Positions 29,201 to 34,082 of a stretch of 64,000 nt of DNA are shown one piece after another. Numbering within the stretch: the first letter of the stretch is position 1; the number at the start of each line of letters is the position of its first letter. The position numbers were made by a program, and so were the translations under genes. Origin of the DNA: Sycon ciliatum. Its lineage: Eukaryota; Porifera; Calcarea; Leucosolenida; Sycettidae. The stretch spans positions 19,267,543 through 19,331,542 of the forward strand of contig NC_088654.1 in assembly GCF_964019385.1 (NCBI RefSeq), in the 5' to 3' direction. Under the pieces are notes generated by a model. It saw only the letters and a program-made list of their open reading frames with translations. It did no database searches and was not told the DNA's origin.

Positions 29201-32200
29201 TCATCCCTCTACAAGGTATTTGGGGTCAACGTGTGTTTTGGCGCAGTTCGCCACCCCCAATCGCAAGGTGCCGCAGAACGGTTCAACCAAACGCTGTTGA
29301 CCTTGGTGCGGAAGGTCCTCGACGAGTCCAGTGATTGGCAGGTTGACCTAGCTATGCTCCTGTACTTCTACCGCAACAGGCCCCACAGTGTCACCGGTGT
29401 CTCACCTATGCAAGCAATGGTTGGCTGGCAGCCCCGCAGTCTCGTGGTGGATGCTACCCCAACAGATTGGTCGTTTCCCCGCTGGACGGAGGAAATACAG
29501 CGTCGCGCCTCAGCCATGTACGATCTCCTGGAATCAGAGTTGTCGTCCTGCGATTTTGTCGAGGAGCCAACTCAAGCGTTCTCGGCTGGAGAGTCTGTTC
29601 TCTTCCGCCGTCCACACCGGCACCAGAAACGACTCCCCGAATTCGAAGAAGGTTGGATCGTCAAGCGAGTCGTTGGTCCCTCAACTGTCGTGATTGGCCG
29701 TGGCACAGCAGAAAAACTCGTCAACACAGAGCTGCTGAAGCCTGCTGGAAGTCATTCCAGTCGTATCCCTGAGCCACTAGATGTAGCTAGTATTATCGAT
29801 GACGAGCCGTTGGACCATGTGCCTTTGGCTGGTGTACCTGATGACACCGCTGGTGGTCGTCTTCTCCGCGACAGAGCCCTGCTCCGTGAGCCTAGTAGGT
29901 ATGGCTCTTGAGACCACTATGTTCTCTGCTTTGTCCGAGTTTGGGTCTGACTCGTGACTCTAATTCGTGTTTTGGCCGTCTCTGACGATTGACGTTTAAC
30001 CCTTTATGGACGGATTACTAGCACAGTACGCACCAGAATTACAAAATGTCAGTACAATTTTCAACTTTACCATGTCAAAACTTTGGTGTCCTTCACTTGA
30101 TTTTCACAATCAAGGGCTCATTGGAAAGCTCTTGACGAGAGCAACGCCAGGGTACCAATCTCCATTATCCAGCCGCCACAAATCAGGCGCGGTAACACAG
30201 CAAAGTCGTCTCCAAGCCTGATATGCAAGCAAATTTGTCCCATCAACGCCATTCCACTCTCCTTCATCGCAGAACGCTCAAATCTGTTTGAGACGATTCA
30301 AACTTCAGCCGGCTACGTCATTATCATGTGCTGAGTCGCTCAAAGAGCACACGAAAAGGGATTTTCCCCCAAAATGGCGAAATGATTGATCAAAAATTTG
30401 AATTTGCCGAGGTAAGAATACGGCGTGCGATATCTCTGGCGTCCGACATCGTAACTCTTCGGCGATTGTTGCATTGGACAGCTTGGAGTTCCCGCTACCA
30501 CGTAGACCCTTCGATTGTGGAATTTGCTCAAGAAACAATGGAGTTACGAAGTTACGAAGTTTCGATCTTATTAGATCGAAACTCGTACAGTCCGTCCACA
30601 AAGGGTTAATAGTGTGTGTCATAAATTTGGTTCTTTTGTTTTGTTTTCTCAATTTATTGGCTCCTATTCTGCGATAATTGGTACTGTTTTTTATCTTCTT
30701 CTCCTCATTTTTAGTGACAATTGTCACTAGGGGGCATGTACTAGTATCACGTTGCCACGTCACGTCCTAATATGACGTACTGGCATGTGCTTCAGACTCA
30801 TTACGTGTGGGTGTGCTGTGCACGCATGCATGCACCCCCTGAGCAGATAGAGCTCTCAACCACGCGGTGTTCAGTGGTTGTAATTATTATTGCAATGGCA
30901 TGAAGACAGTTTCGACTTTCTATTTCTCTTCCCGTTACTTTAATCCTATCATGCATTCAACTTTGTAAACCATATGAACTGAGTGGGTGTTCGTTGTGTC
31001 GGGTGCACTCTGTGTGCGTGCTTGAGATTCCCCGACAGGAGTTTCACGTGCTACGGGAAGAAAACTATAACCTGTCTCCCCGAATTCAAACAATCCCTCT
31101 TGCAGCACTTTCGCCGACACACTCACTACATTTATGGCACACCAACCCCATTGACTTTCGCCATTGCTGTGCCTGCTTATTTTTCTTTTGTGTTTCTCTC
31201 TTTGCACGCTTGTACTGTTTACCGAACAAGTGAAATTCTCATGTCAACATGTGTCAGCGCCACCCTGATTGGTTGGGTCAGCTGGCCAGAATGCCCAACT
31301 GCTGGCTTCCCGAGAAACTTCTATTTGGCTAGCTGCCCCTCACTCGTCCGCCATGCTGTCCATGGGGAAAAGCGGAAGGATGCAGCAGCGCTTGATCTCA
31401 AAGCCAAGGGTATCTCTCTCTCTATTCTAAATCTGACGGCAGAAGACAAACTATTGTGGTGCGCGGAGGTCGTGGAACATGCTGCTCCATACTCACCGCC
31501 ACCACCAACAACAGCTATGGTGGCAGTCTGTGACACCTGCTCATGATCGTTCAGCTATGGTGGCAGTCTGTGACACCTGCTCATGATCGTTCTCCAAACC
31601 CTGTACACGTACTGTTATTTTGCTTGCCAACAAGTGTCTGTCGAAAAATTATCTACTAGTAGATAGAATCTACATTGTAATGATTGAGTGCGAGCCAGTG
31701 TTTCTCACAACCCATTTTTATTGTCTAGATGATAACTATTCATTGCATTCCCAACTCATCACAACCACGCGCTCTTCAGCCGAACCGTACAGACACCAGC
31801 AAGGACACTTCCGTTGAGAGATAATAATTATTGCTCCACGCCTCTAGACAGCTGTTTCGCTCCCTGTCGGAGCTCATCAGTAGAGGATGATAATGATGAT
31901 AATGGAGGAATGATCATTCTTATACACAAGAAATGGCGCAAGTGCGCGCTTTCCACATATATCAATGGCATATGCAAGCTGCTAAAATGGTAAAGTGTGA
32001 GAACAGCGATAAATAATCATAGTACGCGCTCATTGGTGGAGAAACACACCACACAGGCGACGAAAATCTTACGCGGAATACTGATGCCAAAGGAAAGTAC
32101 ATGTATGTTGTTTATTATTATGATGTTGCAATGTCCATGTATGCAGTCCAGGCGAGACTCACCGCCGAGATCCCCCAACGCGACAGGCTCGGTTGCCGTT

Positions 32201-34082: not shown

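Follow-up and report, generated by a model that had tools for sequence, protein, structure and literature searches.

The window, by which we mean the whole stretch of 64,000 nucleotides of Sycon ciliatum DNA that was analysed (contig C13, positions 19267543-19331542), carries an insertion of about 2.1 kb made up of two head-to-head arms, both built from one 851-nt monomer with a hammerhead ribozyme motif. The question raised by this locus is what kind of element it is and how it came to be inserted. As judged by comparison of sequences, it is probably a non-autonomous retrotransposon of the retrozyme kind that is mobilised by Penelope-type machinery, a reverse transcriptase (RT) with a GIY-YIG endonuclease.

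The insertion and its hammerheads

The features of the locus are given below, with monomer positions numbered from the base following the predicted hammerhead cut (position 1).

31726-31738 (+): target-site duplication, left copy, 13 bp, TAGATGATAACTA
31739-32610 (-): inverted arm, 872 bp, monomer positions 88-851 followed by 1-108; the short end is the outer one, at monomer position 108/109
31841-31886 (-): hammerhead motif of the inverted arm, found by structural descriptor
32608-32610: head-to-head hinge, where the inner arm ends meet with an exact overlap of 3 nt
32611-33861 (+): direct arm, 1251 bp, monomer positions 594-851, 1-851 and 1-142; its outer end is the long end, the match reaching 145 at 33864 through target microhomology
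32829-32874 (+): first hammerhead motif in the direct arm, cut predicted at 32868/32869
32869-33719 (+): one complete monomer of 851 nt between two predicted cut sites
33680-33725 (+): second hammerhead motif in the direct arm, cut predicted at 33719/33720
33823-33877 (+): window equivalent of monomer 104-158, which holds the two start zones of the family
33862-33874 (+): target-site duplication, right copy, 13 bp, TAGATGATAACTA

The original prediction had the geometry right: the 13-bp repeat flanks the whole element, the plus-strand units are exactly 851 apart, with predicted cuts after 32868 and 33719, and both parts are longer than one monomer. The arms are 99% complementary over 873 nt, with 5 of 767 positions differing between inverted and direct arm, and the insertion terminates at 33861-33864, inside the equivalent of monomer 104-158. 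The element is apparently non-coding. Its longest ATG/GTG/TTG frame is of 111 aa and antisense, and tblastn of five Penelope frames against the window found no coding remnant of RT or GIY-YIG in the element. A tRNA scan of the window with bacterial settings found none. In a linear fold the monomer is not more structured than 20 shuffled sequences (z +1.67), and a hairpin in the start region is not significant (z -0.64).

All three hammerheads in the window are the same 46-nt motif of type I, with a complete core (CUGAUGA / GAA / U16.1-C17), a stem I of 6 bp, a stem II of 5 bp and a stem III, ACAGCUGU, that can be read as 2 bp with an AGCU loop or as an intermolecular palindrome of 8 bp. The claim of three intact hammerheads is borne out in that 3 of 3 have this core and the structural descriptor matches exactly these three in the window; on 200 random windows generated with a first-order Markov model it found none. 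A covariance scan against Rfam at a permissive threshold formally went the other way, the best match, to Hammerhead_HH9 (RF02275), having 22.7 bits (E 0.4) where the gathering score is 52, and the minimum-energy fold of the 46-mer differs from the hammerhead fold. We nevertheless retain the hammerhead call because the core is complete and is conserved across copies of the family: in the 20 loci taken whole all 68 hammerhead copies detected keep it, 43 of them letter-identical, in a scan that detects copies with up to six mismatches and leaves badly broken ones uncounted. Going by the complete core, self-cleavage is likely.

A dispersed family with two end zones

A search of the assembly (538 Mb, 313 contigs) with the monomer gave at least 190 matches, on 13 contigs, and further copies do exist. 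We scored 40 loci among 663 first-look candidates and examined 39 of these, leaving out C10:2109232, a near-copy of C10:2126308; 20 were taken whole (L014 and L031-L049), and 19 more by both ends, in which inner pieces could be overlooked. The family is young and dispersed genome-wide, with two subfamilies about 1.7-3% apart, and has tandem units, dispersed copies and target duplications of more than 4 bp.

The outer ends of the arms, in RNA sense, are mostly in two zones of the monomer, a short one at 104-113 and a long one at 140-158, or about +105 and +150 nt downstream of the predicted hammerhead cut. The short ends outside 104-110 are those of L044 (96), L053 (113) and L056 (92). Among the 39 loci examined, 22 head-to-head insertions have their two outer ends inside the zones, and every one of them has one short and one long end, with no short/short or long/long pair. 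Eleven have the short end on the left (L014, L031, L044, L046, L048, L049, L053, L058, L062, L066 and L067) and eleven on the right (L032, L033, L037-L040, L043, L050, L051, L056 and L057), and the short-to-long distance is 31-57 nt or so in 20 of the 22 pairs, mostly about 40-48. The zones were defined on the very loci counted, and it is the Penelope families discussed below that provide an independent check.

In the case of nine loci only a single orientation is present at the places seen, three of them taken whole (L034, L041 and L047) and six by ends (L054, L059, L060, L064, L065 and L068), and their outer RNA-3' ends are all in the zones, two short and seven long; L068 is apparently a duplicate of L064. 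Five loci have both orientations and at least one end outside the zones, with end positions 843/149 (L036), 146/59 (L042), 811/544 (L052), 104/584 (L061) and 698/159 (L063). L055 has unclear limits, the left side of L035 runs into N (right end 110), and L045 is a partial duplicate of L044. The off-zone ends at L036:1501 (monomer 843, 8 nt short of the hammerhead cut) and L042:2798 (monomer 59) each go with a 14-bp target duplication, and are possible alternative start sites. No poly(A) or simple 3' tail was found beyond the zones in the ends read.

Target duplications are clear, and of 12-16 bp, in nine of the 22 head-to-head insertions (L031, L037, L039, L044, L051, L053, L058, L062 and L066). 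They are shorter or unclear in seven, and another six lie within TAA runs, which leaves the length of the duplication undefined; at L048 it is absent. The flanks of the insertions have a GC content of 0.25 as against 0.48 for the window, and runs of at least four ATT units are present at 13 of the 37 insertions tested, with one such run in the whole window. By eye, the insertions in TAA runs at L032, L040, L060 and L105, which include both the element and Penelope, have more flank sequence in common, and since the likeness goes beyond the runs these may belong to a dispersed repeat that acts as a landing site. At L040:3229-3622 there are about 394 bp of other sequence within one unit, between positions 376 and 382, perhaps a secondary insertion.

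A search of the genome for GIY-YIG gave 13 matches among 150 scored candidates. One frame at L098 has both GIY-YIG, at 25.7 bits, and RVT_1, at 27.4 bits (Pfam cut-off 29.6), and L099, which by sequence is in the same family, has GIY-YIG only. The best GIY-YIG match is in a 640-aa open frame at L088 (contig C291, 17.5 kb), which we take to be like bacterial UvrC, the contig being a possible contaminant. We grouped the Penelope-like loci by pLTR module into families A (L096-L099 and L102), B (L089, L090 and L092) and C (L095 and L100), and all 10 have a minimal hammerhead, CCTGATGA...CCGAAACG.

In family A the short end is at about +78 to +85 past the predicted cut and the tail is of 29-36 nt, in two pairs only 29-31 nt; all seven of the opposite-strand pairs within 10 kb, among the 41 matches listed, have one short and one long end. 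For family C the corresponding values are +82 for the short end and 36 nt for the tail. One end of L100 is short and the other long, with a target duplication of about 14 bp, and the nine further pairs have the same combination of ends; one of these is a segmental duplicate of another, giving 9 of 9 independent insertions; these come from 10 of the 11 opposite-strand pairs among the 42 matches listed, C1:41993540 being left out. Exact target duplications of 12-13 bp are present in five independent family C pairs, and none was seen in the C11 pair. For the three families together the rule of one short and one long end holds in 38 of 38 independent insertions (22 + 7 + 9), for which the chance is 2^-38 with independent choice of site at every end and equal odds. 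That the element has the same two-site ends as the Penelope retrotransposons of its own genome suggests that it travels on such machinery.

Homology of the start modules themselves was considered and found unconvincing. There is one weak match of 13 nt, with a single family A copy, a length reached by 13 of 2000 resampled sequences, and alignment of the element with families A, B and C yielded no register that could be used. The distances from the cut are not identical either, the start zones of the element being about 20-30 nt further from it than the start sites of families A and C. As a separate matter, the 36 bases at 31684-31719, just left of the target duplication, have a 92-94% match to the 3' part of family C, and the element looks to adjoin, by a few bases, the end of an old Penelope fragment.

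Template and route of insertion

The two arms of an insertion share the sequence of one RNA. Over 22 positions by which loci can be told apart, 262 of the 267 cells are concordant within insertions and 193 of 196 between arms, where random drawing from the family would give discordance in about 128 of 267. Units within an insertion vary at 81 positions (19 loci), and at 74 of these the rarer letter is private to its locus, as expected from later mutation or copying error; at the other seven it is found in another locus. A tree of the long units groups them by insertion in six of the eight testable loci, the exceptions being L034 and L043. The inverted arm of the longest array seen, L049:1313-8718, is about eight units long. 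Seven full units of this arm have 0/847 differences and the direct arm is identical, with one differing position, besides the hinge, in the innermost unit.

The arms also bear on the form of the template. The hammerhead cut site is crossed by 21 of 24 measured arms (12 loci), 17 of the 24 are longer than one monomer, and 33 inner ends are scattered over the monomer (KS p 0.15), with two within 10 nt of the cut where 0.8 are expected. A linear RNA ending at the cut is thus less likely as the usual template, its inner ends being unclustered there and the cut site so often read through. Read-through and arms of more than one unit imply a junction that was uncut or re-ligated, that is, a circle or a multimer, in agreement with what had been proposed; the seven identical full monomers in one arm point the same way. 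Between the two we lean towards the circle as the usual template, because the units of L049 are identical and internal differences are hardly ever inherited.

The alternative that survives best, somewhat below an even chance in our estimate, is Penelope-type insertion from a linear multimeric transcript of a homogeneous array, with neither circles nor ribozyme cleavage. Ribozyme mutants of the lizard element inserted equally well in vitro, and RNA-seq ends at the cut were absent for that element, according to PMC11167929. Small retrozymes are described as strongly self-paired, which the monomer is not. L035 and L032 have private letters common to units of both arms, which shows that multimers can be mixed or that gene conversion has followed; either would give this pattern. 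Against such a transcript are the seven difference-free units of L049 with their identical opposite arm, and the rarity (7/81) with which unit differences of a source array are inherited.

On the reading that we prefer, the tandem copies would be transcribed and the hammerheads, whose complete cores can be read in the DNA, would cleave the RNA to 851-nt units, to be circularised by ligation, unless the RNA remains multimeric. A Penelope ribonucleoprotein (RNP) would bind this RNA about 100-160 nt past the hammerhead cut, and would cut both strands of an AT-rich target, such as the insertion sites indeed are, at places some 12-14 bp from each other. Priming would then take place at the short site (about +105) from one target 3' end and at the long site (about +150) from the other, and in the insertions each zone is seen used once, a rule common to two Penelope-like families. 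Both cDNAs would continue past the hammerhead junction, in many cases over more than one unit; that the cut site is read through and that an insertion has a single RNA sequence can again be seen. The cDNAs would finally be joined head-to-head, often at a microhomology. We infer cleavage and circularity, the seating of a protein dimer on one start module, and a Penelope protein as the one that acts.

These parts do not have equal standing. We have little doubt that the element was inserted by a Penelope-type route. Exactly one tail per insertion is expected if the two target 3' ends use different start sites of one module and do not start independently, and two RNPs constrained in some other way would yield identical ends. 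That one RNP with both sites of one start module serves each insertion has, in our view, an even chance. We are just as evenly divided on a more general proposal, that Penelope-type retrotransposition is a concerted two-strand reaction of one RNP, probably with an RT dimer, and that retrozymes are its satellites, with a circular template copied for several rounds.

It is also conceivable, though unlikely, that the element is not a retrozyme and is an internal-deletion (MITE-like) derivative of one of the genome's own Penelope elements. The Penelope-type ends, the AT-rich targets, the position of the hammerhead and the 13-nt match to family A would fit such an origin, but apart from those 13 nt there is no DNA match between the monomer and the Penelope loci compared. 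The tblastn search of the window gave no coding remnant, and the hammerhead, with its 2-bp stem III and AGCU loop, differs from the minimal Penelope form.

Twin priming is a known route to inverted L1 5' ends. A LINE-mobilised element inserted by twin priming would likewise be expected to have head-to-head inversions, and a LINE with endonuclease and RT is present in the window at 57413-60400, but we consider this very improbable: the outer ends fall at positions internal to the RNA and keep to two fixed zones, with no poly(A) or simple 3' tail after them in the ends read, and the genome's Penelope elements obey the identical end rule. A satellite spread by DNA recombination would account for tandem units of near-constant length and can be dismissed almost entirely, as loci on 13 contigs with distinct target duplications, fixed ends and one sequence per insertion speak against it, the duplications by themselves contradicting it.

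Relation to known elements

Metazoan non-LTR retrozymes (PMC7229834) share with the element a type I hammerhead, the absence of a long ORF, dimers to multimers, target duplications of more than 4 bp and a GC content below 50%, and one axolotl form has also a two-pair stem III with a palindromic tetraloop. The animal retrozyme RNAs are of about 170-400 nt (PMC7229834), and the element differs from them in its 851 nt, in not being strongly self-paired, and in having head-to-head arms and two-zone ends; the word 'inverted' is absent from the main text of PMC7229834. The description as retrozyme-like is thus sound for the hammerhead, the dispersal, the apparent lack of coding capacity and the 851-nt monomer, and fails for strong self-pairing and for the 170-400-nt unit. 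The monomer is large, as had been claimed, relative to about 170-400 nt, but its size alone is unremarkable because ribozyme-flanked circRNAs of 150 to >1000 nt are reported (PMC7229834). As mobiliser of animal retrozymes, Penelope elements are named there only as a strong candidate. We regard the element as probably a large variant of the metazoan retrozyme kind with a Penelope end signature; it would be Penelope-like at insertion and retrozyme-like in its RNA, and not an autonomous Penelope element. The original interpretation, of a retrozyme-like family with a circular or multimeric template, holds in both respects and had overlooked the two-zone end rule.

With regard to Penelope elements, whose integration is described as little known (PMC11167929), Frangieh et al. 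2024 found that the purified lizard Penelope protein cuts and extends both target strands (PMC11167929). In vitro it uses two adjacent internal RNA starts and prefers ATT; starts are most often 111-118 nt into the ORF and the ribozyme cut is 26 nt in (PMC11167929), from which we obtain by subtraction a start 85-92 nt past the cut for Anolis PAc. The genomic tail of the lizard element is the sequence between the two starts and is called optional, and a difference in start site between top and bottom strand was not seen (PMC11167929). Arkhipova et al. 2013 described pLTRs in inverted, head-to-head arrangement, one of which may optionally have a tail of 31 bp, and explained the arrangement by self-priming on an antisense template (PMC3846280). 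Here the tail is not optional, as there is exactly one per head-to-head insertion with both ends in the zones. The one-short-one-long rule was not found in the open-licence literature searched, which leaves most subscription papers outside.

The Penelope/Poseidon type (PMC11167929, PMC3846280) resembles the element in the place of its hammerhead, ahead of an internal start region, and in having two adjacent starts with a 30-40-nt tail between them, inverted head-to-head copies, partial tandems and AT-rich targets, while the element is without the RT/GIY-YIG frame and has a fuller hammerhead. If the concerted reaction proposed above is true, every head-to-head insertion has exactly one tail. 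The rule seen in 38 of 38 turns the 'optional tail' into a quantitative prediction of two-site, probably dimeric priming. The Penelope end signature is resolved here almost to the base, in a genome that also has Penelope-like elements of its own.

Two other systems may be compared. Plant LTR retrozymes, as partly set out in PMC7229834, have units of similar size (600-800-nt circles) with a hammerhead at the unit border, but unlike the element they have a type III hammerhead, LTRs, 4-bp duplications and Gypsy-type mobilisation. The W-elements/SMalpha of Schistosoma (PMC8490949) are hammerhead tandem repeats of an animal with copies outside arrays, and differ from the element in forming large satellite arrays on the W chromosome; two-zone ends were not found for them in the available portion of PMC8490949.

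The window contains further repeats. An uninterrupted 1374-aa frame at 25787-29911 (+), with zinc knuckle, RT, RNase H and integrase domains, is by its domains the polyprotein of an LTR retrotransposon, and the two frames at 56403-60400 (+), the second of which (995 aa) has endonuclease/exonuclease and RT domains, make up a LINE-like element. At 34282-35182 there are nested inverted repeats with arms of 90 and 39 nt, and 35335-35529 has a 92% match to sequence beside the Penelope-like locus L097 and is another dispersed repeat.
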